Origin: a virus
Direction: 5' to 3' (one strand)
Virus record (IMG/VR): IMGVR_UViG_3300046010_002232
Location: 1-29,195 of that record
DNA length: 29,195 bases
Positions 4,378-29,195 of the stretch are shown in pieces; position 1 is the stretch's first letter; each line of letters opens with the position of its first letter. Position numbers and translations under genes: made by a program. The notes under the pieces are model-generated. The model ran no database searches, was not told where the DNA came from, and saw only the letters and a program-made list of their open reading frames with translations.

Positions 4378-6806
4378 TGGAGAAATTATCAGTTGTAATT
4401 TATCAATCACCATTTCCAAATCAAATGGCTAGTGACGAGGAAAAGTCAACTACCGAGTATGGATTAAAGGTAGCCAAGTCTATTGAGGGTGAGTGGTTTA
4501 AACGTAAAGCAAATACATGTCGGTTCTATGATCAATGGGGTGAATTCCATCGTTTAAGATTATACGCAAGAGGTGAACAACCTGTACAAAAATATAAGGA
4601 TGAGTTATCAGTAAATGGAGATATGTCTATGTTAAATTTAGACTGGACTCCAATTCCTATTATACCTAAGTTTGTTGATATTGTTGTCAACGGAATGAAT
4701 GATAGGCTTTTTACAATTAAAGCTGAATCTCAAGATGTTATGTCTGCTGAAAAGAAAAACATATTTCAAGATATGATTGAGGCTGACATGATAGCTAAAG
4801 ATTTCTTACAGATGACAAAAGATCAATTTGGTATTGATGCCTTTAATGTTAATCCTGATGAGTTGCCTGAGAATGATGAAGAGCTTTCATTATATATGCA
4901 GTTAAAATATAAACCTTCTATAGAGATTGCTGAGGAGGTTGCTATTGACACTATTCTTAAAATGAATGAATACTCAAAAATAAAGAAGTTAATCGATTAT
5001 GATTTAACTGTTTTGGGTAAGGCTGTTGCAAGACATACATTTTTAGTTAACGATGGATTAAAAGTTGATTATGTAGATCCTGCAAACTTCATTCATAGCT
5101 ACACTGAATTGAATGACTTTTCAGATTGCTATTACTTTGGTGAGGTTAAGCAAGTTCATTATACTGAACTTTTAAAAATTAATCCAAACTTAACTGACGA
5201 TCAATTAAAAGAAATACGTAATGCTTCATCTGCTTGGTATGACTACTTTCCTATTATTAGAAACTATCAAGATGATGCATTCTTAAATGAGGTTGTAACA
5301 TTACTTTATTTAAACTATAAAACCACTAAAAGATTTGTTTGGAAGAAGAAAATTCTTGAGAATGGTGGTGAGCGAGTTATCAGAAAGAATGATACATTCA
5401 ATCCTCCTGTTGAGGAAGGAATGATGTTTGAAAAAGTTGAGACAGTTCGTGATGTATGGTATGAAGGTATATTGGTAGGTGGGTCTAATATTATGTTGAA
5501 GTGGGACATGATGAAGAACATGGTTAGACCTAAGTCAGCTACACAAAGAGCACTTCCTAACTATGTAATGTTTGCGCCTAGAATGTATAAAGGAAATACT
5601 GAGTCATTAGTAAGACGCATGATTCCTTTTGCTGATCAGATACAATTGACTCACTTAAAGTTACAGCAAGTAATGAACAGGGTAGTTCCTGATGGGGTGT
5701 TTATTGACGCTGATGGTATCAATGAAGTTGACCTAGGAACTGGAGCAGCATACAATCCAGAGGACGCTTTAAAACTATATTTTCAGACTGGTAGTGTTAT
5801 TGGTAGAAGTTACACGCAAGATGGTGAGTTTAATAATGCTAGAGTTCCTATCCAAGAGTTGAATTCAAATAGTGGTCAATCAAAAATGGCTGCATTGATA
5901 GGTAACTATAATCACTATCTAAATATGATACGTGATGTGACTGGTATTAATGAGGTAAGGGATGGGTCTACACCTAGTCCTGACGCTTTGGTTGGAGTTC
6001 AGAAGCTAGCTGCATTGAATTCAAATACAGCTACTAGACATATATTAGAAGGTGGTTTAAATATAACAAAGAAACTAGCTGAATGTTTATCAATAAGAAT
6101 TGCTGATATATTAGAGTACTCTGACTTTGCTGAAGAGTTTGCAATGCAGATTGGTAAATATAATGTTGCGATACTTAATGACATAAAGGATCTTTATTTG
6201 CATGACTTTGGTATCTTTATCGAGTTAGCTCCAGATGAAGAACAAAAACAAATGCTTGAGGCAAATATTCAAGTTTCATTACAACAACAGACAATCGACT
6301 TAGAGGATGCTATTGATATTAGAATGATTAACAATATTAAGTTAGCAAACGAGTTATTAAAGTTGAAGAGAAGAAAGAGAATGGAGCAGAAGCAGAAAGA
6401 ACAAGAAATGCAGTTCCAAATGCAAATGCAAAGTAACATTCAATCTCAACAAGCTGCTGCTGAATCTAAAGCTCAATTGATTCAGCTTGAAGCTCAATCT
6501 AAGATTCAGTTGAGAGAGGCTGAGATGAATTTTGCTGTTCAACAAATGCAAGCTGAAGCAGCTATTAAAGCTCAATTAATGGATCAAGAATTCCAATACA
6601 ATATGCAGTTAAAGGGTATTGAGACTGATAACTTAATGAAGCGAGAAGAGAAAAAAGAAGAAGCTAAAGATAAACGAGTTGATCTTCAAGCAACAAGACA
6701 ATCTGAATTAATTAATCAAAGAAAGAATAACTTACCACCATTGAACTTCGAATCGAGTGAAGATTCTTTGGATGGCTTCGATTTAGAATCATTTAGTCCT
6801 AAATAG
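4377..6806 (+). CDS. Portal protein
   Basis: This 809-residue protein sits directly after the terminase with a TAATG overlap, the canonical place for the portal, the dodecameric channel that receives packaged DNA. The body (about residues 1-640) has a mixed alpha/beta pattern with conserved-looking stretches such as WTPIPIIPKFVDIVVNGMND and RRMIPFADQIQLTHLKLQQV, characteristic of Bacteroidota phage portals. From about residue 650 to 780 it becomes a long Gln/Met/Lys-rich helix (MEQKQKEQEMQFQMQMQ, then repeated AQLIQLEAQSK-type heptads), forming a C-terminal coiled coil or barrel. It ends with an acidic tail including SSEDSLDGFDLESF. Large portals with such helical extensions are usual in crAss-like phages. 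It ends with TAG overlapping the next GTG start. Confidence 0.9.
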   Translation: MEKLSVVIYQSPFPNQMASDEEKSTTEYGLKVAKSIEGEWFKRKANTCRFYDQWGEFHRLRLYARGEQPVQKYKDELSVNGDMSMLNLDWTPIPIIPKFVDIVVNGMNDRLFTIKAESQDVMSAEKKNIFQDMIEADMIAKDFLQMTKDQFGIDAFNVNPDELPENDEELSLYMQLKYKPSIEIAEEVAIDTILKMNEYSKIKKLIDYDLTVLGKAVARHTFLVNDGLKVDYVDPANFIHSYTELNDFSDCYYFGEVKQVHYTELLKINPNLTDDQLKEIRNASSAWYDYFPIIRNYQDDAFLNEVVTLLYLNYKTTKRFVWKKKILENGGERVIRKNDTFNPPVEEGMMFEKVETVRDVWYEGILVGGSNIMLKWDMMKNMVRPKSATQRALPNYVMFAPRMYKGNTESLVRRMIPFADQIQLTHLKLQQVMNRVVPDGVFIDADGINEVDLGTGAAYNPEDALKLYFQTGSVIGRSYTQDGEFNNARVPIQELNSNSGQSKMAALIGNYNHYLNMIRDVTGINEVRDGSTPSPDALVGVQKLAALNSNTATRHILEGGLNITKKLAECLSIRIADILEYSDFAEEFAMQIGKYNVAILNDIKDLYLHDFGIFIELAPDEEQKQMLEANIQVSLQQQTIDLEDAIDIRMINNIKLANELLKLKRRKRMEQKQKEQEMQFQMQMQSNIQSQQAAAESKAQLIQLEAQSKIQLREAEMNFAVQQMQAEAAIKAQLMDQEFQYNMQLKGIETDNLMKREEKKEEAKDKRVDLQATRQSELINQRKNNLPPLNFESSEDSLDGFDLESFSPK

Positions 6807-8799: not shown

Positions 8800-10200
8800 A
8801 TGGCTGGTACATTACAAGCGAGTCCTCCTGTAAATCTTACACCGAGCTCGATTAAGGCAGCGTTGCCTACAAACTACATCACTAACTTCAATTTCTTGAC
8901 TCAGTATCTTCCTGATACTTATGAAAAAGAATTTGAGCGTTATGGTAACCGATCAATCGCATCTTTCTTGCGTATGGTTGGTGCTGAACTTCCTTCTAAC
9001 TCTGACTTGATTAAGTGGGCAGAGCAAGGTCGTTTGCATACTAAGTATACTGGAGTATCAACTACAGGAGCAGTTTCTTCTGGTGTTCAAACATTTGACA
9101 TTGGAACAGGAACATGTGTATTTAGAGTTGGTCAAACAGTTATTTTATCATCTGCTAGTGCTAATAAATTACAAAAAGGTATTATTACTGCACTACCTGC
9201 TTCTGATCAATTTACTGTTGCATTTTACACTGCTTCTACTGATTCTCCTGGATTTACTCATACAACTTCTGATATTATCGCATTCGTTTATGGTTCTGAA
9301 TTTAAAAAAGGATCAAATGGAATGAGTGGTTCTTTGGAAGCTGAAGATAGCATCTTCGAAGTATCTCCTATTATCATCAAAGATAAATATGTTGTATCAG
9401 GATCTGATATGGCTCAAATTGGATGGGTTGAAGTAACTACTGAAAATGGTGCTACAGGTTATTTGTGGTATTTGAAATCAGAGCATGAGACTCGTCTACG
9501 TTTTGAGGACTATATGGAAATGGCTATGGTAGAAGGTGTTCCTGCTGGTTCTGGATCTGGAGCTGCTGCTTTAACAACTGGTGATTTGGGTAACAAAGGT
9601 ACTCAAGGTTTATTTAACTCCATTGAGACAAGAGGAAATGTATGGGCTGGTGGTAATCCATCTGCTTTGGCTGACTTTGATACTATCGTACAACGTCTTG
9701 ACAAGCAAGGTGCTATCGCTGAGAATGCATTGTTCTTGAATCGTCAATTCTCTTTTGATATCGATGATATGTTGGCTGCTCAAAACTCTTACGGAGTTGG
9801 TGGAACATCTTACGGATTGTTTGATAACAGCGAGCAAATGGCTTTGAATCTTGGATTCACAGGATTCCGTAGAGGTTATGAGTTCTATAAAACTGACTGG
9901 AAATATCTTAACGATGCTACTCTTCGTGGTGGTCTAGTTGGTGGAGCTGTAAACGGAGTTTTAGTTCCTGCTGGTACAACTACAGTTTATGACCAAGTTC
10001 TTGGTAAAAACGCAAAACGTCCATTCTTACACGTTCGTTACCGAGCTTCTGAAGCTGAAAACAGACGTTACAAAACTTGGATGACTGGTTCTGCTGGTGG
10101 TGCTGCAACTAGCGATCTTGATGCAATGGAGGTTAACTTCTTGACTGAAAGAGCGCTTTGTACACTTGGTGCAAACAACTTCTTTATCTTCAAAGGATAA
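8800..10200 (+). CDS. Major capsid protein
   Basis: This 466-residue protein has the length, position and sequence style of a Bacteroidota phage (crAss-like) major capsid protein, expected to adopt the HK97 fold. The N terminus contains FLTQYLPDTYEKEFERYGNR and SFLRMVGAELPSNSDLIKWA followed by EQGRLHTKY, a stretch I associate with this family. Later segments include FLHVRYRASEAENRRYKTWM and the end TERALCTLGANNFFIFKG. Codon use supports high expression: Gly, Ala and Arg codons are more GC-rich and regular (GGT, GCT, CGT) than in neighbouring genes. A strong terminator begins 11 bases after the stop. The five-base gap from the scaffold indicates co-transcription. Confidence 0.87.
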   Translation: MAGTLQASPPVNLTPSSIKAALPTNYITNFNFLTQYLPDTYEKEFERYGNRSIASFLRMVGAELPSNSDLIKWAEQGRLHTKYTGVSTTGAVSSGVQTFDIGTGTCVFRVGQTVILSSASANKLQKGIITALPASDQFTVAFYTASTDSPGFTHTTSDIIAFVYGSEFKKGSNGMSGSLEAEDSIFEVSPIIIKDKYVVSGSDMAQIGWVEVTTENGATGYLWYLKSEHETRLRFEDYMEMAMVEGVPAGSGSGAAALTTGDLGNKGTQGLFNSIETRGNVWAGGNPSALADFDTIVQRLDKQGAIAENALFLNRQFSFDIDDMLAAQNSYGVGGTSYGLFDNSEQMALNLGFTGFRRGYEFYKTDWKYLNDATLRGGLVGGAVNGVLVPAGTTTVYDQVLGKNAKRPFLHVRYRASEAENRRYKTWMTGSAGGAATSDLDAMEVNFLTERALCTLGANNFFIFKG

Positions 10201-17184: not shown

Positions 17185-18504
17185 ATGTGTGATTGCATAA
17201 AAATAAACTATATTCCAATTGGTGGTGAGCCTGTATCTACAGAGGTTATTTCTAATGGTATTATAAATAGTAAGAACTACTATGAGTTTAGTATTCCTGC
17301 GCAAAGTTCAGGTTGCGATACTATTAGTATTACATATCAATTAATTGGTGAAGAGCCTGTTACGGTGGAGGTTGAGAGTAGTGGTGTTGACCCTGAAACA
17401 AATAAACCTTATTATGATTTTAATATAAATGAAACTGGAGTTCAAATATATCCTCTTATAAATGAATTTTATAATAATTGGGTTTTTTCATACGAGAATG
17501 ATGTAGAAGCATTCATACCTATTGACACCCCCTGCCCTTTCGGTACTTACACAATTGAAGAGGGTAGCATATTTGAAGCGTTTGAGGTTTCTCTTGTATC
17601 AGAACAATCTTTCACTATTTCATGGGATGGTATAAAGTGGTGTTTATTTTTAGGTGAGTCACTTTTATGGGTGCTAGCTGAAGATGAAGATTGTCCAATA
17701 GGAAATTGGGATAATGAGTCTGATACAACTTACTTCTCTGGATTTAGTACTGAAGAATGTGAACCAAAAAGAACGGTAACATATTCAAAAGTATCTGAAG
17801 GATGGAATTCATTTTGGTCTTATCAGCCTGACTGGATGACTGAAATGAATAGCACATTTTATACTTTTAAAGAAGGTGAGCTCTGGAAGCATAACGTGAA
17901 CACAACTAGAAACAATTTCTATGGTCAGCAGTATGGTTCTAAAATAAGGACGATATTTAATGAGCAACCTTTAGAGGTAAAGGTATTTAATACGTTATCG
18001 TTAAACAGCACTCACACTTGGACTGCTGACATATATACCAATATATCTGCAGGTTCAATTGACTACACTTACTTTGTAGAAAAAGAAAATCAATGGTTTG
18101 CTTATATAAGAAGATTTGACAACACTATTGATGTTAAAGCCTTATCTACTCAAGGGGTAGGATCTGCAAATAGCATTGACATAACTGATCCAACGGCTGT
18201 TGAATTGAACTTTTCTTTTAATGTTGACTCAAGCATTAGTATTGGAGATAAGTTATACAAAAATTCAGGAAGCAACTTAATTTTGGTAGGCACAATTGTA
18301 GGAATATCATCAAATATGATAATTGTAGATACAAGTGTTGGAAGTATACCACTAATAACTGACTTCTTGATATCTGTAAAAAATAGCCAAGCTGAATCAT
18401 TTGGTTCTCGTGGATACTATATGAATGTGTATTTATCTAATGATTTAACTGAAGAAGTAAAATTGTTTGCTATAGGCTCTTCAGTATTCAAAAGTTTTCT
18501 GTAA
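17185..18504 (+). CDS. Second stabilization/muzzle-type tail protein with N-terminal repeats (439 aa)
   Basis: The N terminus holds two similar modules of about 40 residues: CDCIKINYIPIGGEPVSTEV from residue 2 and CDTISITYQLIGEEPVTVEV from residue 44, each ending in a YY-x-F-x-I strand. Two Cys-Pro turns follow, CPFG at 117-120 and CPIG at 170-173, suggesting another degenerate repeat. From about residue 197 the sequence reads TVTYSKVSEGWNSFWSYQPD, then WMTEMNSTFYTFKEGELWKH and later RNNFYGQQYGSKIRTIFNEQ. That is the C-terminal domain I would expect at the end of a crAss-like stabilization protein. The upstream gene lacks it, so the function appears divided between two proteins. The frame differs from the upstream gene and a 16-base gap intervenes, so this is a separate gene. 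A surface-exposed or receptor-contacting role for the N-terminal repeats is possible. Confidence 0.72.
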   Translation: MCDCIKINYIPIGGEPVSTEVISNGIINSKNYYEFSIPAQSSGCDTISITYQLIGEEPVTVEVESSGVDPETNKPYYDFNINETGVQIYPLINEFYNNWVFSYENDVEAFIPIDTPCPFGTYTIEEGSIFEAFEVSLVSEQSFTISWDGIKWCLFLGESLLWVLAEDEDCPIGNWDNESDTTYFSGFSTEECEPKRTVTYSKVSEGWNSFWSYQPDWMTEMNSTFYTFKEGELWKHNVNTTRNNFYGQQYGSKIRTIFNEQPLEVKVFNTLSLNSTHTWTADIYTNISAGSIDYTYFVEKENQWFAYIRRFDNTIDVKALSTQGVGSANSIDITDPTAVELNFSFNVDSSISIGDKLYKNSGSNLILVGTIVGISSNMIIVDTSVGSIPLITDFLISVKNSQAESFGSRGYYMNVYLSNDLTEEVKLFAIGSSVFKSFL

Positions 18505-18512: not shown

Positions 18513-18914
18513 ATGGAAGTTCGACTATTGAATGGCAATGACTATGAGACATTGTCATCGTGGTGGAGAGATTGGAGATGGACTCCTCCTCCTGCTGATA
18601 TGTTACCAGAGAATGGTACAGGTGGGGTGATGGTGTCTAAGGATGGTGTTGAGATATGTGCTGGATTTGTTTACTTTACGAACTCAAAGGCAGCATGGAT
18701 TGAATTTATAGTATCTAACTTTCAATACAAAGAAAATGATAGGCATGAGGCTCTTGAATTTCTTATAAATGTATTGATTGAATTAGTTAAAGATGCAGGT
18801 GATTTTAAATATATTTATACATCACTAAAGAGTAAAAGTCTAATTGACAGATATAGCAATTGTGGCTTTATTAAAGGAGATAGCAATTGTCAAGAAATGG
18901 TTAAAATATTATAA
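18513..18914 (+). CDS. GNAT-like protein in the tail gene block
   Basis: I start at ATG 18513; an in-frame TTG two codons earlier is less likely. The product, 133 residues, begins MEVRLLNGNDYETLSSWWRD and contains RWTPPPADMLPENGTGGVMV. A strand pair follows (EICAGFVYFTNSKAAWIEFI with VSNFQYKENDRHEALEFLI), and it ends IDRYSNCGFIKGDSNCQEMV plus KIL. Strand-helix order and the ending 'Y-x-x-x-GFxxGD...M-K-L' fit the GNAT N-acetyltransferase fold. The acetyl-CoA loop is not canonical: the R/Q-x-x-G-x-G/A motif is replaced by ENDRHEAL, so it may use a different acyl donor or be non-enzymatic. Such small GNAT-like genes recur among phage structural genes, where they might modify virion proteins. 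The substrate is unknown. Confidence 0.65.
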   Translation: MEVRLLNGNDYETLSSWWRDWRWTPPPADMLPENGTGGVMVSKDGVEICAGFVYFTNSKAAWIEFIVSNFQYKENDRHEALEFLINVLIELVKDAGDFKYIYTSLKSKSLIDRYSNCGFIKGDSNCQEMVKIL

Positions 18915-18915
18915 C

Positions 18916-19596
18916 ATGGCAGCAGTAACAGGAACGATAGTAGCTTTAGGTGGTTTAGGTTTGAGTGCAGCTCAAGCTATCAAAGCCAATAAAGATATGA
19001 AAACGGCATCACAGGCGGCAGCTAAAGCGGCAGGTGAATTAAAAAACATCAAGGAGTTTAATGCATTCAAGCAAGTTCAAGTCCCTACCTTAGGATTTGA
19101 ATTGGCGCAACAATCACAAGCTCAAGCAACAACACAAGCAATGCAATCATTGCAGGGTGCAGGTGCTGAGGGTGTTATTGGTGGAGTAGGAAATGTACTT
19201 CAAGCTGGAAACGAACAAGCTTTAAATTTAGCTGCTCAGGCAGGTCAAGCACAGTATCAAAGAGATATGGCACAAGCTGAGGCAGAGCAAGGTATTCAAG
19301 CTAGACAGCAAGAACGTAATCTTATGATTGGATTAAATGAAATGCAAAGTGCTCAAAATGAAAGACAAGCTGCTGAAGAAAGAAAGAATGCTGCAATTGA
19401 AGGTATGTTTAGTTCGGCAGGAAGTGCATTAACTAGTGGAGCAGGCGCATTAAACTTATACAAGAAATCAGGTAGCACTACTAATTTTAATGTAGGTGAT
19501 AAACCTAAACCAGGACAACCTGGTAGTGGTGTTATGGCTTATCAAGGTCAACCTACTACACAGAATTATAATATGTGGACTGGTCTTCCTGAATAA
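18916..19596 (+). CDS. Ala/Gln-rich internal virion (ejection) protein candidate, 226 aa
   Basis: The frame extends upstream to 18844, but that start lies deep inside the GNAT-like gene. ATG 18916, one base after that gene ends, gives the natural N terminus MAAVTGTIVALGGLGLSAAQ. This is a Gly-rich hydrophobic segment (about residues 3-22) able to insert in membranes. The rest is rich in Ala, Gln and Glu and almost wholly helical to about residue 175, followed by a flexible Gly/Pro/Gln/Asn tail ending in NMWTGLPE. Composition, size and position after the tail proteins resemble T7 gp14 or P22 gp7, which are stored in the head and ejected to form a channel across the envelope. This is inference from composition and order, not homology. 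Confidence 0.72.
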   Translation: MAAVTGTIVALGGLGLSAAQAIKANKDMKTASQAAAKAAGELKNIKEFNAFKQVQVPTLGFELAQQSQAQATTQAMQSLQGAGAEGVIGGVGNVLQAGNEQALNLAAQAGQAQYQRDMAQAEAEQGIQARQQERNLMIGLNEMQSAQNERQAAEERKNAAIEGMFSSAGSALTSGAGALNLYKKSGSTTNFNVGDKPKPGQPGSGVMAYQGQPTTQNYNMWTGLPE

Positions 19597-19607
19597 AATA
19601 AATAAAA

Positions 19608-21074
19608 ATGTCAAACAGATACAACGAATATACAGGATTTATACCAGCAAGTAATCCAATAGATTGGGCGAAGCTTACTGGTGGGTTAGTTACTACTATA
19701 CAAGGTATAGGTGCTGCAAGAGAAGCTGAAAAACAACTACTTGATAAATTGCAATATGATAATAGTAAGATATTACAAAATACAGAACTAGGTAAAAGTC
19801 AGACATTAAATCAATTGATTCTATCTGGATCAAATCAAGGTAGAGAATCAATGATGGAGTGGAATCGTTTATTGAAAGCTGGTCAAATTACACCTCTTGA
19901 ATATAAAAATAGAATAAACAACTTGATGGATAGCTGGTCTACATTTGCTAATACTGCAAAAAGTTATGACCAACAAATGCAAGAAGCATTAAAAAGACAA
20001 CAGGAAGGTATAGGATCAGGTCTTGAGTTAGAACTGAACAATAGACTCTCTCAGTTAGGAGATTTAAGAAATAAAGCAACTCAAGTAGATCCTAATAATG
20101 GTAACTTTATTATTGGTCAACTAGGCCAAGATGGTTTATTTAATCCTTCAAGCATAATGGATTTAAGGTCTATATCTCAACCAGGAAATATGATTGATAA
20201 TAAAGTTGATTTATCAACTATTGTCGACGAGAAAACAAAAGGTTGGGAAGATTGGACTATTGAATTAGGTAATAAGACTATAACAGACGCATTGCAAAAT
20301 CCTGCTATACAAAGAGCAAGACTTGATTTGGCTAATGGTATATTAAGTAATCCTAGAGCTACAACGAGCATTCTAAAAGACAATACTGACGGAAATTACG
20401 ATTTCTATTACAGTAATGATGATTTAAATTCAAAACTTCAAGACAGAGTATCTAAAGAAAATGAACTTAACAAACAACTTGGAAAACCTGCTTTAGATGG
20501 TTATGCTTTAGATAAATTTATTGAATCTGAGAAAGAAAAGTTTATATTGCTTGCTCAAGATGATCAAGGTGTTTATCAGCCAAATTTGACAAATAAACAA
20601 ATTGAAGATGCAAAGCAAACTGTATTGGACGCTATTGACTCAAGACTAGAAAGAAAGGTTGAACTAGATGAGCCTGATAGAGGAGGCGGAGGTGGAGGCG
20701 GAGGCGGAGGCCGAAAAAGTGAAGATAAAAGCCAAGAAAATGCAGCTATGATAGCTGGATATAAAGCCACATTAAGAGCTTGGGGTGCTGATCCTGATGC
20801 AACAATATCAAGTGGTAGTTGGGTAAAATCATCTAGTGGACCTGATTTTGGTGGTTTAAAACAAGGTTATACATATACACCTAAGAATGGAGGAATTGAA
20901 GTTTCTAAGGGTAGAGATGTTGTCTTTTTTGCTAAGACACCAAAAGATTTATCTCAGTTTGTATATAATGTAGAGCCAGCAAAAGCATCTTTAAATTGGG
21001 AAGAAGCTAGGAAAATGGCTAGATCAAGTCAATCAAGTGGTAGTAATAAAGGAAGCTCTGGTATTCAGTGGTAA
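19608..21074 (+). CDS. Probable internal virion/cargo protein with a poly-Gly tract (488 aa)
   Basis: The N terminus, FIPASNPIDWAKLTGGLVTT (11-30), contains a short amphipathic or hydrophobic segment. It is followed by a long helical, Gln/Leu-rich region (about 35-145). The middle (150-350) is mixed charged helix. Ten consecutive glycines at 359-368, flanked by arginines, form a flexible linker to a C-terminal domain (about 375-465) with GYKATLRAWGADPDATISSG and VVFFAKTPKDLSQFVYNVEP. The end is Ser/Gly-rich. No catalytic motif is recognised. Its place between the Ala/Gln-rich protein and the giant ORF suggests it is part of the same packaged or ejected set. The start ATG 19608 lies behind an A-rich leader with no Shine-Dalgarno. 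Confidence 0.72.
   Translation: MSNRYNEYTGFIPASNPIDWAKLTGGLVTTIQGIGAAREAEKQLLDKLQYDNSKILQNTELGKSQTLNQLILSGSNQGRESMMEWNRLLKAGQITPLEYKNRINNLMDSWSTFANTAKSYDQQMQEALKRQQEGIGSGLELELNNRLSQLGDLRNKATQVDPNNGNFIIGQLGQDGLFNPSSIMDLRSISQPGNMIDNKVDLSTIVDEKTKGWEDWTIELGNKTITDALQNPAIQRARLDLANGILSNPRATTSILKDNTDGNYDFYYSNDDLNSKLQDRVSKENELNKQLGKPALDGYALDKFIESEKEKFILLAQDDQGVYQPNLTNKQIEDAKQTVLDAIDSRLERKVELDEPDRGGGGGGGGGGRKSEDKSQENAAMIAGYKATLRAWGADPDATISSGSWVKSSSGPDFGGLKQGYTYTPKNGGIEVSKGRDVVFFAKTPKDLSQFVYNVEPAKASLNWEEARKMARSSQSSGSNKGSSGIQW
20682..20711 (+). repeat. GGAGGC-type short tandem repeat encoding ten glycines
   Basis: Thirty bases consist of alternating GGA, GGC and one GGT codon, giving a G-rich run on the coding strand within otherwise AT-rich DNA. 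The pattern is close to a hexanucleotide repeat (GGAGGC/GGCGGA) and could change length by slippage in whole-codon or whole-hexamer steps without breaking the frame. The closely spaced GG pairs could also form a two-tetrad G-quadruplex. Confidence 0.8.
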
Positions 21075-21090
21075 TTAAAAATATATAAAC

Positions 21091-24000
21091 ATGCCTAACG
21101 ATAATTTAAAGAAGTATTACGATTATTTAAAAGCAAATAATGCTGATGTTGCACCAAATTATGATGCATTTGCTAACGCTTTGAGCGATGAGAATAACGC
21201 TAAAAAATATCACTCATATTTATTGAATAATGGTTTTGATGCTCCTAAAGATTATAATGTTTTTGTAAATCGATTAGGTTTAGTAAAAAAAAAAGAGGTT
21301 TCACAATCAACACCAAAAAATGGAGCTGTTTCATCGGTTACACAAGAAATGGTTCGAAAGAAGCGTTCGGAATATTCATCTCCAGATGATGGTATTTATT
21401 CAAATCCAGAAAATAATCAAAACTATAAAAAAGTTTCAGGTGTTTGGTATAAAGATGTAACAGGTGCTGGCGATTATAAAGAAATAAAATCTGGAAATGT
21501 CAAGTATAGATATGACTACCTAAATAAAAATGCAAAGATGATTGCTGATATTAACGGCAATCCAGTACAACCAAATTATGAATTAGCTAATCAAAAACAA
21601 ATTGAAAAAGCTTATAATATAACTCCAGAAAAAGTAAAAAAAGAAGAAGAGTTAAGGCAAAAAGAAATAGCTAAAAAAGCTCCAGAATTAAAACAATTTA
21701 AACCAGCTATTGCTGATGGTAAGTTATTTGATATTTCTGATGATAAAGGAAAAGCTGAATTTGAAAAAGCTCACTTTGAATATGTTAAAAGTGGTAAATA
21801 TCAAGAGGACGTTGAGAAAGTTAAAAAAGAAAATGATCTCAACGATATATTAAATACTGTTACTACTGACTTAGTAGGTTCAAACGAAGATGAGGTAATA
21901 TCAAAATTACAAGGTAAGTTAAAGAAATACGAATACCTTGAAATAGAACCTGCTGGAAGAGGTTATGATGGTATAAAGATTAAAAATAATGTAACTGGCG
22001 AAAGTAAATTTATTAATCTTGACAACTGGACAACTGATAGAGATAACGAAGAAGCAAAATTACTTAAGGGTTTCTTAGAAGTAAATATAGTTAATGATGA
22101 GTACATCAAAAAACAAAAACAAGTAAATGATCTAAGAGATAGAATTGAATCTGAAAAGAAAACAAATCCATACAATGTAATATTTCTTCAAAAAGAACTT
22201 GATGAGTTGTTACCTCAACTTGATAAAGAAAGAGAGAAAAAGCTTGACTATATGTCAAAAGATAAATATAGATCAGCTGCTTCTTTTGATAAATATGAAA
22301 TAGACAGAATAAATGACAATATAACTAAAACTATTTTAAAGAAAGAAGATATAAAAAGAGAAGCTTCTGAATTAAATAAATATGAGCAAGACGTAAATGA
22401 GTCATTTAAAAAAGGTTTAATAACAGAAGAAGATTATAATGTCAACTACCTACCTAAAATAAATAAAAGAAAGGAAGAAATTGATAACAATATAAAGTCA
22501 CTTAAAGACGACTACAGAAACATATCTAATGAGCAATCTGATGTAAAAAATATAGCAGGTAATGCTTTTATAGTTGAATCAGAAAGGGGAAATATTTTAT
22601 CAGGAACTGCGTTTTCATTTGTCCAAGGTTTTGAGCAAGCAGCTAGAATTATTGTTGAAGGAGATGAATATGCAAGAGGATCTGCAAAGGGAATTATAAC
22701 ATCTCAATTTGCACCTGAGTCTTTTAGTGAAGAATATTTATCATCAGAAAAAAGAAATGCTTTTGAACAAGTTGTTTTTGGTTTATCTAACTCTGGTGGT
22801 TCAGCATTAGCAGGTGCTATGACTGGAGGTCCTGTTGGATCTACACTTGGATTGTATGCATCTTCTTACACAAATTTTAGAGATCAAATGAATGGTCCTG
22901 AATTTAAAGATGTATCTGAAGGTGAAAAGATGCTACTTGCTGGATCTGTAGGTGCTATTACTTCATTGTTAGAAAAATATGGATTAACTAAAATGTTTAG
23001 TAAATCTCCAGTAAATAATAAAATAGTAAATTACGTTTTCTCTAAATCACTAAAAGGACTTCCTGAAAATGCTACAGCAGAGATGATTGATAATGCTGTA
23101 GAGAAAGAACTAAAAGGATTGATTGCAAACAAAGTTTTAAAAGTTACTGGTGCTGGTTTAATAGAATACTCTACTGAGGCAGGTCAAGAGTTAACTGAAA
23201 TAGGTGCTAAAGAATTATTAAATCAAGTAAAAGGAAAGAAATACTTTGAGAATCCAAAAACATTTGGTGAAGTATTTGAAAGAGCAAACAAAGCTGGGTT
23301 ACTTGGTTTGTTGGGTGGTGCTGGAATGCAATCAATTACTCAAGCTACATTAACTGCAAAGCAGCAGTTAGATAAATATCAATTAAGCAATATTGAAAAT
23401 ACTATAAACAATAAAGACATTAAAGATTTATTTGTTCTCAATATAAAAGATAGAATTTTATCAGGTGAAATAACGAAAGATCAAGGACAAAGAGAATTAA
23501 ATTCTCTTAAAGAATCTGAAGGTGTCCTAAGACAAATACCAGATAATTTATCAAATGATGATAGATATACATCTTTTAAATTAATAAACGAAAGAGAAAA
23601 TTTGCGTAAGCAAATGGAAGGGAAAGACCCTGCTCTTGTTACTCCCATATCAAATAGGATTAATGAGATTAATAATGAACTAAAAACAATAAGTGAAAAT
23701 GCCGTTCAAGTCGAAACAGCAGGTGAAATTCCTGTACAGCCAGAAACCGCAGTTGGCGGAGAAGTGGCGCAAGGAGAACCCCAAGCAGAACCTAAAGTCG
23801 CTACCGAAGAAGGTAAAAAAGAGCAAATAACAGCACAAATAAATATTGCTCCTTTATTTGATACCAAGGTTACAAATGTTCAAGAGGCTGAGTCAATAAG
23901 ACAATCTGAAATGTATCAGAACTATAAAAAAGATATGTCTGATACTGCTCAAAGATTTGGTATACAAGTTGACAATATTGAAGATACAATTGGTGGATAT

Positions 24001-27000
24001 GAAGGAACATCTGAAGTATCTACAGTTGTAAACGTAACAGGAGATTGGAATAACATTGTAGATTTTGCTGCTGTTTATGGTGCGATAGCTCCAGAAGTTC
24101 AAGATTCAACAATTGCTGGTAGAACTGTTGATCCACAAACAAATGAACATAATGCTGATAGGTTTGATATTGGTATTGATAATCAAGAAGCAGCATTAAA
24201 AGCTGCTGAGGATGCAGGATTTAGTCAAGATGGATTTACTATGTCTGGAAATAAAATAATGTTTTTTAATATTTTTGACTATCCAGTTAGTAATTTTGAC
24301 GAAAAATATGCTACATTTGTAGATAAATATTTAGAATATGGCGGAACAATCACTTCAGAATCAAAATCAGCAGTCCAATCAGAATTCATCGATTCTATCA
24401 GAAGGTCAGAAATCCTTGAACAGATTGAAAGAAATGCAGTACAGCAAGGCAGATGGGAAAGCATTCGTGATGTCATACAAAAAGCCAAAGAACGAAACCA
24501 ATCTTACACAACAAAAGGATCAGAAGTAACACAACAAAATTTAGTTACTGAAGAAAATGTTGAACAATTAAGATCTCAACAAACTACACCTGTAGCTCAG
24601 AAAATTTTTACTGCTGCTAAGTTAGCAATGAAAGCATTACCTGGGGTTAAAATTTATATTCATAATACAACTCAAGATTTTGATCAAGGTATAGGTGAAA
24701 AATCAAATGAGGGTGATAGAGGTGCTTATGTTGATGGCGAGATTCATATAAATTTAGAGAATGGTGCTGATGTTGTAACAATGTTGCATGAAGCGATGCA
24801 TCATGCTCTTACTGTTAAAGGTATTGAGTCAGGAGCAATGATTGATTTAGCTAATGGTCTAAAATCAGTTATATCAGATAAGGGATTAAAACAAAGATTA
24901 GATAGTTTTACTTCTAATTATGACGGATCGGAACAAGCTGAAGAATATTTAGCTGAACTAGGTGGAATTATGGCTGAAGCTCAACAAGAGTTAACTACAA
25001 CTAAATTCCAACAATTTAAAAATTTAATTAATAAGTTAGCTAAAAAACTTGGTTTACCAACTATATTTTCTTCAGCAGCAAATGCTAAAAATGCTGTTGA
25101 CTTTATAAACAGTTTAACAAAAGGAATTAGTACTGGACAAAATATAGTTACTGAAGGTATACAATCTAAAATTATTCCTACTGAAAAAGTTAAAAAACAA
25201 GTAGAGGTAAAAGATAAATATAATCTCTCTTATGTAAAGAAATCAGATTTAATTAATTTAAGATTATTAATAGAAGATATAGCAAATAAAAATCAGAATG
25301 TTTGGTTTTGGGTTGCTGATCAATTAGGAAGAGGTTTTGTTGATGATAATATTATAAATGGTAAACATTATTTAGATGCAGGCCCGTCATTTGCATTAGA
25401 TCCAGAAAATAGAAATAAAAATATTATATGGGCATCAGGAGTAAACTTAAAAACGCTTGATAATAAAATAAAGGATAGTGATTATATATTTATAATAAGT
25501 GGATCTCCTCAGAAATCTAAATTGTTTAATAAGACTGTTTCTAATTTTGTTAAAAATAGAATAGAGCAATCTATTGAATTTAATAAATTTAAATCATCAA
25601 TTTTAGAATCTAATCCTACAAAAGATATAAAAACAATATTAGAAAAATATAATAACTATAATGATTTATTTAATGGTTCTGACAGAAAACAATTTTTAAT
25701 AGCTATATCAGAGCAAGAAAAAAAATCAACTAAAACAAAAAAATTATTAGAGTCTTATAATGCATTTGTTGATTATGATTCATTAAGAGACGATTTTTAT
25801 AGAGATAATAATTTTGAGATTGGAGATATAATGTTGGTTTTAAAACCAGAATCTATAGGTGGTAAATCAAATCATTCTACATATGAAAATAATATAATTG
25901 GCGAAGTAGTTGGAGTTCCAGATGTTATTATAAATTCTTACGACATACTTCCAGAAGATATAAGATCAAAATATCAAGAAGATATTTCTAGAGTACAACA
26001 ACAACAAGTTGTTGCACCTTATGGAATGGGAATTCGTAAAGTTAAAAAACAAAAAATTACTCCAGAAAATTCTTCTAATTATGCTAATCTTACAGAAGAT
26101 GACAAAGGTAATTTTGTATTTTTCCATATAGGTGAAAAAAATTATGATGTAATAAAAAGAAGTTCTGGAGCTAGCCTAAAAACAAGTTCAACAGAAGGAT
26201 CTGCCATCGGAAGAGTTGGTGGTGTTGCAATGTATTACACTAGACCATCCGATGGTGAAAGAATGGTTACTGGTCCATCAAGATATATTGTAAAAATACC
26301 AAAAGATGAAGTTTATGACTTTAATTCAGATCCATTAAAATTAATAGATGAAGCAGAAAAAAGATTTAATGAGGAATTTCCTGGATTAGCATTTACACCT
26401 AATGACCAATTAGCTTATATAACTAAAATAGCAGATGAGAATGGCTATGGTATGACAGTTGCACAATGGGGAGATAGAACAAGGGCACAGACAGTTCAAG
26501 AATACAAACCTGATGATGTTGAAATTACAGAAGGTAGTAGAATTGTAAAACCATTTGATGAAAAATATATAAGCAATACTGAAAAAGGATTTGTATCTGT
26601 TATACCTGAATCAAAAAGTAAAAAAATCAATGATTTATATGATAAGATTTATAAAATAAGAAATTCTGAAGGAAAATATGATGATCTATATAGAATTCAA
26701 GAAGAGTCAAGCAAAATGACTCAAGATCAGATAACTGATATGATAATGAATTCAGATTTACCAAAAAGTATTAAAGATGAATATCAAGAAATATTATCTT
26801 ATAAACCTGAGAAAAGAAGATCTATTAAAAAGCAGAAATCTAGTATACAAAAACAAGAAGCAATTCAAAAAGCAAAAGATAAATATACGCTATCAGTAGA
26901 GCAAAGAGGTAATCCACATAAGCAAGGTGTAGATGCTGCATTAAATGATTTAAGAAAGTCAGAATGGTATAAGACTACTGATGATACACAAAGAGAAAAT

Positions 27001-29195
27001 GCTGAGAGAGAATTAAAATTATTCTTTGGTGAAAAACTTAAGAAAGCTCCATCAGTTGCTAAGGTATTAGGTAAACCTAAAGCAAAACAGGTTTCAGTTA
27101 ATGAGATGTCAGCACTTAAAGACCAAATTAGACTAGAGGCAAAAGCTGCTCGTGAAGCTAAGGGTGATTTAAATGCTAAAAGAAAAGCTCTTGCTACTGC
27201 TATTAGTAGTATGGTTAAGACTGGCAAAATAAAGGCTGCTCAAGCTGGCGTTATAATTAAAAGAATTAGCAATCTTAACTTAGACAACCCAGTATTGGTT
27301 GAGCGATTTATTGATTATTCTTCTAAAGTATTTGACAGAGCTGACTACCAAGAAAGACTTGACAATGCATTTAAATTACGAAAAGCAATCCGTAAGGCAT
27401 TAAAAACTGACAATCAAGCTGAAGTAGTTGGTATGGCCAAAGATTTTGCAAAAATTGATCCCTCAATGGTTGAGGATATCGATGCATATATTGCAATGGC
27501 TGAAAAAGTTGTAAATGCTGTTAAACCATCACGAGTAAAAGGACTTGATGTAGTAATGAAGGAAGCTGCAAATATTGCTGAGGTTTCTGAATACACAAAT
27601 AATGAGATTGAAAGACAGGAAAATGTTCTCAAAGACGAGATACTTGCTGTTTATAATTCATTAGTTTCTGATGGTATTATATCGAAAGATATGTCATTGA
27701 AAGAAATGCAAGATATGATAAATTCTTTGAATGATCCTACTACCAAAATGGATTCAGTTGAAAAGGAAAAAGGAATAAGAAATTTTTTAAATGAAAGATT
27801 AAAGTTATTAAAGCCAAGTATTGAAACGATTATCAGAACAAAAATTGATCCATTTACTGGGGAAGAGTTGGATATCGATAACAATGCCATTGAACTGATG
27901 AAAAAAGTTATGGATATAGACATAGCTGATATGTCAGTAAGGGATGCTATAAAGGTTGTTGAGGCAATAGATAACTTCTTAAATAACAATATAACAAGTG
28001 GACTTGAAGCAGTTGTTAGTAACTATGAGGGGGTTAAAAATGTTAACAAATTAGTTAACAAAGGCATTAAGGCTAGACCTATTAAATTATTATTGAATAA
28101 AACAATAGGTAGATTCTATAGTGACGAACTTTATTCTCTTCCATTATTAATGGAAAAACTGTTTAATGGTGTTAGAAATGCTACAAAAATTATGGAGATG
28201 GCAGGTCTATCAAAATTAATTAATGGTGTAAATAAAGCAAATAATCAACACAATAAAATACTTGACGATTATTCAAAACAAGATTTTTATAATTCAAAAG
28301 GTTTTATGGATGCTAAAAATGTATACGAAAGAGGTATGCTTGCATTCTTAAATAGAAATCTTATTGGAACAGAAGCTGAAATGAAAGCTGAGTTGAATAG
28401 AAGGATTGATATGATTAAGCAAAGTATCCAAACTTTGATTGAAAATGGAGATTCAAAAGAAGTGAAAATGGGAGAAATGTATCAAGAGATCTTCGACAAA
28501 CTTAATGTTAATGAAGGTGATATTGATATAATTAATTCTAGTGCTAGTAAAAGTAATAGAGAAGCTGTTAATTGGTGGATTAATCAATGGGCTAAAAGCT
28601 ATAAAGAATTATCAGATATAAGCTTGTCAGTTTATAATACACAACTTGGAAGTGATTTAAATTATACTCCAGATAGGTATAAAAAATTATCAGGTGAATC
28701 AGTTCAATTTGATTCAGATTTAATTGAAAGAAATGGAGCTTTCTCTATTAGTATTGATTACACAGATAAAAATAAGACTGGAGTATTGATGGAAACAACA
28801 AGACCAAAAGTTATTCCTGATGATAGATATGTTAGTCTTGATTTTGATACAAATAACTCAAATTCACTTCAAGCCGCATTAGTTGATATAAATACAGCAA
28901 GTGCTATTAGACAAGTTGATGGTTTTGTTAACTCAAAAGGATTTAAAAAATTATTTACTGAATCTGACGACAGAGTTCTTATAACAAGAAGAATTAACAA
29001 TTATATCAGAAGGGCAAAAGGAAAGAAAATTGCACCGAGAGATACATGGGACTCAGTAAATAAACTCACAAACTTTATAACATCTATAGGTGTTGGAAAA
29101 GCATTGGGTGGTTTAAATCAAGCCGTAATGCAAACTGTTCCTGTAATCGCTAACACTGTTATAAATGCAGGTAGGTTTATAACTGTAAATTCCCT
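21091..29195 (+). CDS. Giant multidomain phage protein, polyvalent/internal-virion type (partial, open at right edge)
   Basis: The frame from ATG 21091 has no stop through 29195, giving at least 2701 codons. An in-frame TAA at 21076-21078 fixes the 5' limit. In order: two 24-residue helical repeats (8-31 and 39-62); charged coiled-coil regions to about 490; Gly/Ala-rich hydrophobic segments at about 500-520, 562-592 and 735-750; a Pro/Glu/Val linker (871-910); a globular part (970-1090); a zinc-metallopeptidase signature HEAMH at 1233-1237 with later E1285/E1289; a Trp-rich domain (NVWFWVADQLGRG, 1403-1415); a possible ADP-ribosyltransferase-like domain (about 1675-1830); long helical regions; and another hydrophobic stretch near 2660-2690. 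This mosaic resembles phage polyvalent proteins delivered with DNA. Giant proteins after the tail genes are known in crAss-like phages; some carry an RNA polymerase, but no DxDGD motif is seen here. Confidence 0.85.
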   Translation, partial: MPNDNLKKYYDYLKANNADVAPNYDAFANALSDENNAKKYHSYLLNNGFDAPKDYNVFVNRLGLVKKKEVSQSTPKNGAVSSVTQEMVRKKRSEYSSPDDGIYSNPENNQNYKKVSGVWYKDVTGAGDYKEIKSGNVKYRYDYLNKNAKMIADINGNPVQPNYELANQKQIEKAYNITPEKVKKEEELRQKEIAKKAPELKQFKPAIADGKLFDISDDKGKAEFEKAHFEYVKSGKYQEDVEKVKKENDLNDILNTVTTDLVGSNEDEVISKLQGKLKKYEYLEIEPAGRGYDGIKIKNNVTGESKFINLDNWTTDRDNEEAKLLKGFLEVNIVNDEYIKKQKQVNDLRDRIESEKKTNPYNVIFLQKELDELLPQLDKEREKKLDYMSKDKYRSAASFDKYEIDRINDNITKTILKKEDIKREASELNKYEQDVNESFKKGLITEEDYNVNYLPKINKRKEEIDNNIKSLKDDYRNISNEQSDVKNIAGNAFIVESERGNILSGTAFSFVQGFEQAARIIVEGDEYARGSAKGIITSQFAPESFSEEYLSSEKRNAFEQVVFGLSNSGGSALAGAMTGGPVGSTLGLYASSYTNFRDQMNGPEFKDVSEGEKMLLAGSVGAITSLLEKYGLTKMFSKSPVNNKIVNYVFSKSLKGLPENATAEMIDNAVEKELKGLIANKVLKVTGAGLIEYSTEAGQELTEIGAKELLNQVKGKKYFENPKTFGEVFERANKAGLLGLLGGAGMQSITQATLTAKQQLDKYQLSNIENTINNKDIKDLFVLNIKDRILSGEITKDQGQRELNSLKESEGVLRQIPDNLSNDDRYTSFKLINERENLRKQMEGKDPALVTPISNRINEINNELKTISENAVQVETAGEIPVQPETAVGGEVAQGEPQAEPKVATEEGKKEQITAQINIAPLFDTKVTNVQEAESIRQSEMYQNYKKDMSDTAQRFGIQVDNIEDTIGGYEGTSEVSTVVNVTGDWNNIVDFAAVYGAIAPEVQDSTIAGRTVDPQTNEHNADRFDIGIDNQEAALKAAEDAGFSQDGFTMSGNKIMFFNIFDYPVSNFDEKYATFVDKYLEYGGTITSESKSAVQSEFIDSIRRSEILEQIERNAVQQGRWESIRDVIQKAKERNQSYTTKGSEVTQQNLVTEENVEQLRSQQTTPVAQKIFTAAKLAMKALPGVKIYIHNTTQDFDQGIGEKSNEGDRGAYVDGEIHINLENGADVVTMLHEAMHHALTVKGIESGAMIDLANGLKSVISDKGLKQRLDSFTSNYDGSEQAEEYLAELGGIMAEAQQELTTTKFQQFKNLINKLAKKLGLPTIFSSAANAKNAVDFINSLTKGISTGQNIVTEGIQSKIIPTEKVKKQVEVKDKYNLSYVKKSDLINLRLLIEDIANKNQNVWFWVADQLGRGFVDDNIINGKHYLDAGPSFALDPENRNKNIIWASGVNLKTLDNKIKDSDYIFIISGSPQKSKLFNKTVSNFVKNRIEQSIEFNKFKSSILESNPTKDIKTILEKYNNYNDLFNGSDRKQFLIAISEQEKKSTKTKKLLESYNAFVDYDSLRDDFYRDNNFEIGDIMLVLKPESIGGKSNHSTYENNIIGEVVGVPDVIINSYDILPEDIRSKYQEDISRVQQQQVVAPYGMGIRKVKKQKITPENSSNYANLTEDDKGNFVFFHIGEKNYDVIKRSSGASLKTSSTEGSAIGRVGGVAMYYTRPSDGERMVTGPSRYIVKIPKDEVYDFNSDPLKLIDEAEKRFNEEFPGLAFTPNDQLAYITKIADENGYGMTVAQWGDRTRAQTVQEYKPDDVEITEGSRIVKPFDEKYISNTEKGFVSVIPESKSKKINDLYDKIYKIRNSEGKYDDLYRIQEESSKMTQDQITDMIMNSDLPKSIKDEYQEILSYKPEKRRSIKKQKSSIQKQEAIQKAKDKYTLSVEQRGNPHKQGVDAALNDLRKSEWYKTTDDTQRENAERELKLFFGEKLKKAPSVAKVLGKPKAKQVSVNEMSALKDQIRLEAKAAREAKGDLNAKRKALATAISSMVKTGKIKAAQAGVIIKRISNLNLDNPVLVERFIDYSSKVFDRADYQERLDNAFKLRKAIRKALKTDNQAEVVGMAKDFAKIDPSMVEDIDAYIAMAEKVVNAVKPSRVKGLDVVMKEAANIAEVSEYTNNEIERQENVLKDEILAVYNSLVSDGIISKDMSLKEMQDMINSLNDPTTKMDSVEKEKGIRNFLNERLKLLKPSIETIIRTKIDPFTGEELDIDNNAIELMKKVMDIDIADMSVRDAIKVVEAIDNFLNNNITSGLEAVVSNYEGVKNVNKLVNKGIKARPIKLLLNKTIGRFYSDELYSLPLLMEKLFNGVRNATKIMEMAGLSKLINGVNKANNQHNKILDDYSKQDFYNSKGFMDAKNVYERGMLAFLNRNLIGTEAEMKAELNRRIDMIKQSIQTLIENGDSKEVKMGEMYQEIFDKLNVNEGDIDIINSSASKSNREAVNWWINQWAKSYKELSDISLSVYNTQLGSDLNYTPDRYKKLSGESVQFDSDLIERNGAFSISIDYTDKNKTGVLMETTRPKVIPDDRYVSLDFDTNNSNSLQAALVDINTASAIRQVDGFVNSKGFKKLFTESDDRVLITRRINNYIRRAKGKKIAPRDTWDSVNKLTNFITSIGVGKALGGLNQAVMQTVPVIANTVINAGRFITVNS

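Follow-up and report, generated by a model that had tools for sequence, protein, structure and literature searches.

The window analysed here is the complete linear virus fragment record IMGVR_UViG_3300046010_002232 of IMG/VR (29,195 bases), and its last third is occupied by a giant open reading frame (ORF) that starts with ATG at position 21091 of the plus strand and continues to 29193 through 2701 codons without a stop. Because the record is a linear fragment, the 3′ end of the giant is cut by the contig end. The encoded protein opens with a tandem-duplicated tag (residues 1–64), followed by a conserved N-terminal part that we term the chassis (residues 65–955; 21283–23955), an exchangeable payload cassette (residues 956–1911; 23956–26823) and a conserved C-terminal part (residues 1912–2701; 26824–29193), which in the relative L003 spans residues 1912–3177. 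Directly upstream, on the same strand, lies the gene for a 488-residue protein (19608–21074) with the C-terminal tail SGIQW (21057–21071), its last five residues before the stop. The tag of the giant and the tail of its neighbor vary together among related phages, and we argue that they probably form one of many matched docking pairs.

Related loci compared with the window carry labels such as L003 and L004. The giant of L003 is 98% identical to that of the window in amino acid sequence and is complete, comprising 3177 residues and ending in a stop. Complete giant ORFs of 2657–3450 residues are present in five further relatives, and the homolog in the elemo phages has 3694 residues. Substitutions between the window and L003 giants are distributed over codon positions 1, 2 and 3 as 43/14/95, with no insertion or deletion across the 2701 codons, and the frame is therefore coding. 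The initial annotation of this DNA had described the frame as open to the window edge, and these comparisons bear this out.

Terminase and portal genes are located at 2158–6806, followed further on by genes for virion structural proteins of the PHROGs collection and then by those for a 250-residue protein, the 488-residue protein and the giant. This order looks like that of a tailed-phage late region. The 250-residue protein (18844–19596, plus strand) contains one strongly hydrophobic segment and belongs to PHROG 13764, a virion structural protein. Judged by its position, it resembles T7 gp14 and is probably the first ejection protein; the 488-residue protein, positioned like T7 gp15 or N4 gp51, is probably an ejection protein as well. 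The initial annotation had already placed the giant behind two likely ejection proteins, which this late location agrees with; the duplicated tag and its partner tail were absent from it.

The tag of the window consists of two repeats, residues 4–31 (21100–21183) and 35–62 (21193–21276). None of 300 shuffles reached the duplication score, which for this tag type was computed on L009, a locus with a tag identical to that of the window. Further giants were gathered by searching with either the C-terminal part or the payload's zincin domain, and most of them open with short tandem duplications that differ in sequence between phages. Among 80 unique N-termini, the score was reached by 0/300 shuffles in 55 cases and by at most 3/300 in 58, whereas 240 windows taken from the interior of these proteins yielded 10 at a threshold of ≤1/100 shuffles; the tally counts sequences rather than events, and the sequences are related. 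A duplication test applied to every ORF at these loci, with 1011 unique N-termini in all, was passed by 61. Forty-eight of these belong to ORFs of at least 1500 residues, and the other 13 comprise truncated or split giants, a gene of L100 and unrelated repeats. The L100 gene (6157–7062) encodes a 301-residue protein immediately before a tagged giant and itself bears a tandem tag; it is possibly a second cargo or part of a daisy chain.

The tags fall into types of unrelated sequence. The window type follows the pattern YYDYLK...DAPxxYxxF, whereas type A is LYxLYKSKGL...TTDFNTF, type B is KYPEY and type C is DFVATANSGKY...KFPEL; short types include IKPVIVxDDGIN and LPSPxxIL. The tag is usually followed by KKK (21286–21294 in the window), and alignments between differently tagged phages start at this junction. 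From KKK onward, and despite unrelated tags, the giants of L014 and L017 are 88% identical, those of L012 and L036 80%, and those of L013 and the window 78%. L012 and L013 have a common tag, yet their N-terminal parts are 32% identical. In these alignments, the border between tag and conserved protein is fixed even where the tags are unrelated. Searches of named phage records gave no usable match to the window-type tag (best E 3) and no match to tags A, C and G at E limits of 1, 0.1 and 1, respectively, and one scan of genome contigs also gave none for the window type. The window tag has no Pfam match of weight, and for the tag model described below Foldseek found no match in the PDB at E ≤ 0.001.

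The last 5–8 residues encoded by the gene just upstream vary with the tag of the giant; in the window they are the end of the 488-residue protein. Expected tail motifs were noted from a few loci first, and IMG/VR was then searched with alignments made to the tag only (177 loci). Strict motifs were fixed beforehand, whereas the relaxed motifs, that of type G included, were chosen once the data were known. Regular expressions that match the tag served to assign loci to types A, B and C. The tests on new loci covered types A, B, C, G and that of the window. Removal of duplicates reduced 281 loci to 223. The new-locus counts omit loci with tag and tail identical to those used in training, the training contigs L312, L315, L316 and L318 for type G, and L152 and L155, for which the first reading gave no upstream ORF (L155 later showed the tail NNDPLGLGL). 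The relaxed motifs are present in 8/9 new loci of type A, 56/63 of type B, 64/67 of type C and 10/11 of type G. Representative tails are GDxIF for type A, DPLGIR for KYPxY-type tags and GGNVR for type C.

Specificity differs between the motifs. Across all 223 unique loci, relaxed A matches 13 of 15 type A tails and 0 of 208 others, and relaxed B matches 60 of 67 type B tails and 2 of 156 others; relaxed C is found in 68 of 71 type C loci, in 17 of 67 type B tails and in 3 of the 70 that remain. A further 3387 ORF tails contain 5 matches to relaxed A, 24 to B and 126 to C. For type G (K[PR]xAY), the relaxed motif occurs in 16 of 3695 unique ORF tails, 14 of which precede type G tags. Beyond their own types, relaxed A, B and G are seldom found, and relaxed C is less specific. 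For the window type, [GS]G[IV][QN]W was predicted in advance, and two new contigs carry SSGINWG, a strict fit, and GSGVKWG, which is one residue off. A C-terminal [GS]G[IV]xW is found in 6 of the 3695 unique ORF tails, all six upstream of the window tag type. Across the collected loci, a tighter DPLG motif picks out nine further tails, all from loci with KYPxY-type tags; seven of the nine come from phage records that had been retrieved by tag. Eight lie directly before the tag and one (L204) is separated from it by a short ORF.

The KYPxY-type tag and DPLG[IL] tail are found in seven phage isolates, the records examined of 22 found. Vibrio phages vB_ValP_FGH, 44E38.1 and 1.211.A, Thalassomonas phage BA3 and Pelagibacter phage HTVC106P have the tag together with the predicted tail. 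In Ruegeria phage 45A6 (L300, approximately 3516–3989), the tail DNDPLGLR stands at the end of a 157-codon frame that differs from the frame of the annotated upstream coding sequence, a frameshift or misannotation; the seventh isolate, Maribacter phage Panino, is considered below. Two variations in the form of the pairs were also observed. A doubled tail peptide precedes a doubled tag in the upstream gene of L168 and in Bacteroides phage BKO1-TP3 (L306, 2860–3975; tag doubling judged by eye), which may point to one peptide pairing with each repeat. L016, L025 and L095 combine short proline-rich tags (IPSP, LPSP or LPKP) with a longer helix-like tail of the approximate form AxxAEWKxxGWTDxQI, a pattern that resembles an exchange of sides between plug and socket.

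Covariation was measured in a set of 79 loci not selected by tag. Tag similarity correlates with tail similarity (r 0.573), also when the similarity of the upstream bodies is removed (partial Mantel r 0.505), with 0/999 permutations in each case. Locus pairs share loci and their counts are not independent; with this limit, 91 pairs that have different tags and similar upstream bodies show tails at background level (1.1% similar), and 30 pairs that have the same tag and similar bodies show similar tails in 83%. For type B, BLASTP at 1e-5 separates 64 tagged proteins into 29 unlinked clusters and 65 upstream proteins into 39. The codons used at conserved tail residues vary, with four for Gly, six for Leu and four for Pro in type B, and the type C Arg codon is mostly AGA. 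This variation implies that the constraint on the tail acts at the amino acid level. As far as these alignments and correlations reach, they show the tail to change with the tag across upstream proteins without detectable similarity.

The simplest reading of this pattern is a plug-and-socket contact that would load and order the giant. The duplicated N-terminal tag would provide a socket for the short C-terminal tail of the upstream ejection protein, and their contact would place the giant beside that protein in the virion. At infection the giant would leave the virion after its neighbor. We consider it probable that the giant comes last among the ejection proteins and carries the payload, and that its tag binds the upstream tail in matched, exchangeable pairs; physical binding, presence in the virion and ejection order are what we infer from the sequences. 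Many distinct pairs would exist and be exchanged among phages independently of the payload. A wider proposal, which we favor with less assurance, is that phages of Bacteroidota and Proteobacteria use a common modular loading code with many orthogonal plug-and-socket types, so that any cassette could be carried on any chassis.

Several observations weigh against the docking proposal. The duplication threshold is missed by 22 of the 80 N-termini, and the giants of the elemo phages, L005 and L007 appear untagged. The strict motifs proved too narrow, being found in 5/9 (A), 3/63 (B), 19/67 (C) and 4/11 (G) new loci, and the relaxed forms were chosen post hoc; relaxed C also fits 17 of 67 type B tails. 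Where the tag is shared but the upstream bodies are dissimilar (19 pairs), the excess of tail similarity is weak (mean 0.224 versus 0.168). Upstream residues −60 to −14 correlate with the tag as well (r 0.624), and blocks larger than the motif therefore move together. The tail conservation profile used the motif itself as anchor, and part of its peak height is therefore built in. In phage Panino (L303), the KYPEY tag (approximately 8986–9168) lies in a frame unlike that of the annotated giant and beneath an annotated antisense ORF, an apparent frameshift or split gene, and phage BKO1-TP3 was found by an F-type query at E 0.05 without having an F-type tail. When tail, linker and type C tag were modeled as a tethered construct with AlphaFold2, the tag folds as two helical hairpins, but the tail has a predicted local distance difference test (pLDDT) score below 50 at every residue save one and no docking was seen.

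The same covariation would be expected if tail and tag each bound a third partner, such as the portal, a scaffold or a host factor, and the match mirrored the type of that partner. In the available text of PMC8954989, the T7 ejection proteins are indeed arranged on the portal. However, five related pairs with different tags have no other gene that changes solely with the tag in the stretch compared, genes further upstream lying outside it. The variable parts of the 250-residue protein and of a 439-residue protein encoded at 17185–18504 also differ between the window and L011, which have the tag in common. We regard a third partner as unlikely.

Slightly less likely still is that the tail, which adjoins the tag in the DNA, is carried along with it by recombination without any interaction between the two. 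The genes are −23 to +50 nucleotides apart, the correlation of residues −60 to −14 with tag type fits such a process, and the last approximately 115 residues of the upstream protein diverge between the window and L036. Against this, profiles of 54 tails each for types B and C, made after removal of near-duplicates and anchored on the motif, lack conservation in the 20 residues before it. Positions not forced by the motif are conserved, namely I/L after DPLG in 51/54 type B tails and G before GxxR in 46/54 type C tails. Type B tails are kept over the 39 upstream clusters that have no BLASTP link. Between L036 and L012, the tags of which differ, the upstream protein has low-identity windows solely in its last approximately 30 alignment columns.

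The domain mosaic would also be expected if the giant were a polyvalent phage protein of the ordinary kind whose N-terminus happens to vary, and such mosaics are well described for that class in the available text of PMC5512222, but duplication and tail match both exceed their controls and we give this account very little credence. Least credible is a nucleic-acid signal for the giant, acting in ribosome binding or translational coupling: the tail lies just ahead of the start codon and some of the genes overlap, but the gap between tail gene and start varies, and the codon variation at conserved residues, even with the type C Arg mostly AGA, led us to reject the ribosome-binding explanation.

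The proposed contact has counterparts in well-studied ejection systems. In T7, the N-terminal tape of gp16 stabilizes the flexible C-terminal part of gp15 (PMC8954989), and in N4, the gp50 N-terminal domain is modeled on gp51 and thought by the authors to come after it (PMC12633501), according to the available text of both accounts. The T7 gp14–gp15–gp16 and N4 gp52–gp51–gp50 sets, as described there, each combine a small membrane protein, a tunnel protein and a large protein that meets the tunnel protein through its N-terminus. In the window, a membrane-type protein of small size, one of medium size and the giant are likewise encoded next to one another, a likeness of position, and the tag and tail occupy the matching positions at the matching gene ends. 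In contrast, the same portions of these accounts contain no exchangeable tag or tail code. Searches of Pfam, PHROGs and PDB sequences also found no RNA polymerase or transglycosylase domain in the giant, with residues 1130–1912 covered by fold prediction.

The T4 capsid targeting sequence brings injected internal proteins into the head and is known in one conserved type, whereas here there are many unrelated tag types, each with a partner tail. A further parallel may be drawn with the docking domains of polyketide synthases and nonribosomal peptide synthetases, short N- and C-terminal regions that pair subunits in a set order (PMC9113145, available text). The system of the window differs from these in combining a short tail with a duplicated helical or proline-rich tag among phage late genes. 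Docking pairs are thus already known from megasynthases, and the new element would be an exchangeable tag–tail code of phage ejection proteins, of which we found no description in the available text of the open literature outside bioRxiv. Little is settled about how the proteins ejected ahead of phage DNA are selected and put in order. If the docking proposal is true, injected proteins, including ones that are not giants, could be found in genomes without homology from tag and tail, and a defined protein–protein contact of the virion would become testable. It might also help experimenters to mount selected proteins on phage particles.

Comparison of relatives with the L003 giant shows that both ends match and the middle differs. 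In L004, 453 residues without a BLASTP match substitute L003 residues 956–1911, and the flanks are 95% and 91% identical; this replacement contains a ddrB-ParB domain (E 2e-12). The cassette is 337–1479 residues long in 30 loci, those that could be bounded among 31 with an intact start. Its bounds are the ends of BLASTP matches, and the 30 include the L003 and L004 contigs and one near-duplicate. With the near-duplicate removed, a Pfam scan of 29 cassettes gave ddrB-ParB in 4, DUF7178 in 4, DUF3293 in 2, ART-PolyVal in 2, Tox-MPTase2 in 1 and L5 gp82 in 1; no Pfam domain was found in the cassette of L003's contig, which is nearly identical to that of the window. Single payload domains reappear in other giants without their neighboring domains. 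Between the window and L003, substitutions number 11 in 2868 nucleotides of payload, 78 in 2673 of the N-terminal part and 62 in 2370 of the C-terminal part. The payload is approximately 7-fold less diverged than its flanks, which suggests a recent exchange of the cassette between close phages.

The giant is probably a virion-borne cargo protein of the polyvalent type, built as a mosaic of distinct domains. In the available text of PMC5512222, polyvalent proteins are very large, contain many unrelated domains with a metallopeptidase hub and are encoded beside late virion genes, all features seen here, and they include ADP-ribosyltransferase (ART) and ddrB-ParB domains, which occur here in relatives of the window. 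Neither a duplicated N-terminal tag nor a matching upstream tail appears in that text, and the window's own domains, unlike those of described polyvalent proteins, give no usable Pfam match. The initial annotation had called the giant a mosaic of distinct domains of polyvalent type, and the cassette replacement in L004, the three separate domains predicted in the payload and the ddrB-ParB, ART-PolyVal and Tox-MPTase2 domains in the cassettes of relatives, none of them in the window protein, agree with this. An RNA polymerase domain, which it had also considered, did not turn up in the library searches. The hydropathy scan of the complete L003 giant gave a single 19-residue stretch with a mean above 1.2; it lies inside the payload, and membrane insertion in the manner of T7 gp16 is unsupported by this test as a result.

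Searches of Pfam, PHROGs, NCBIfam and PDB sequences with the window giant gave no usable match; two Pfam matches, DUF2624 and RICTOR_phospho, fell below their cut-offs and were rejected. Fold prediction of the window giant covered residues 1130–1912 (783 residues), from an alignment built with 29 relatives, with a mean pLDDT of 79.1. Foldseek alone found no match to this model in the PDB at E ≤ 0.001; among predicted viral proteins there were matches, the best to an elemo structural protein (E 7e-30). The Foldseek list was passed through VIA-align, the scores of which are trusted from Z 8 upward according to the tool's advice. All VIA-align matches of the cassette are under this value and serve as leads. 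The model contains three separate domains, each with its own distribution among other giants.

The first of these is a zincin-like metallopeptidase domain (residues 1134–1360; 24490–25170), identified from alignment, distribution and fold match. Its HExxH motif (HEAMH, residues 1233–1237; 24787–24801) and three downstream Glu residues agree with the protease signature mentioned in the initial annotation: HE..H and the three Glu are invariant across six aligned sequences including the window. Residues 1153–1321 (model 24–192) match zincins at Z 4.6–4.9, model residues 13–219 match the N4 virion RNA polymerase gp50 at Z 4.5, and a zincin profile found nothing below E 0.1 among PDB sequences. The zincin assignment appears firmer from sequence than from fold. 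The second domain (residues 1374–1650; 25210–26040; model 245–521) has weak YTH-like matches of Z ≤6.0, with YTH entries in 13 of the 16 best rows. The third (residues 1646–1822; 26026–26556), which occurs in other giants without these neighbors, is ART-like. Residues 1670–1811 (model 541–682) match 6kyf best, with Z 6.9 over 120 residues at 10% identity, which keeps the ART-like domain of the initial annotation as a lead. The region also matches MbcT (6fkg, Z 5.8) and RhsP2 (7rt7, Z 4.0), both of which we take to be ARTs. PDB entry 6KYF is AcrIF11 (PMC12421852, available text); in the window, the ART-like domain sits inside a giant protein. Motif and fold are the reason for proposing that the payload may act in the host through peptidase and ADP-ribosyltransferase-like activities. 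The exchangeable cassette is a rich place to seek anti-defense enzymes.

Matches of the giant in the phage collection comprise 68 records, all Flavobacterium phages, and the matches listed among them are elemo phages. Their homolog was deposited under the name ‘structural protein’, the one hint that the giant may be present in virions. Kinship with the elemo phages is the basis for viewing the phage of the window as probably short-tailed, and its host group is probably Bacteroidota. Two further genes of the window deserve mention. Upstream of the packaging genes, a 208-residue ORF (213–839) belongs to PHROG 4245, which has no assigned function. The 439-residue protein has a duplication of approximately 42 residues at its N-terminus, and its residues from about 30 to 130 differ even between the window and L011, despite their common tag and tail; it is possibly a host-recognition protein.
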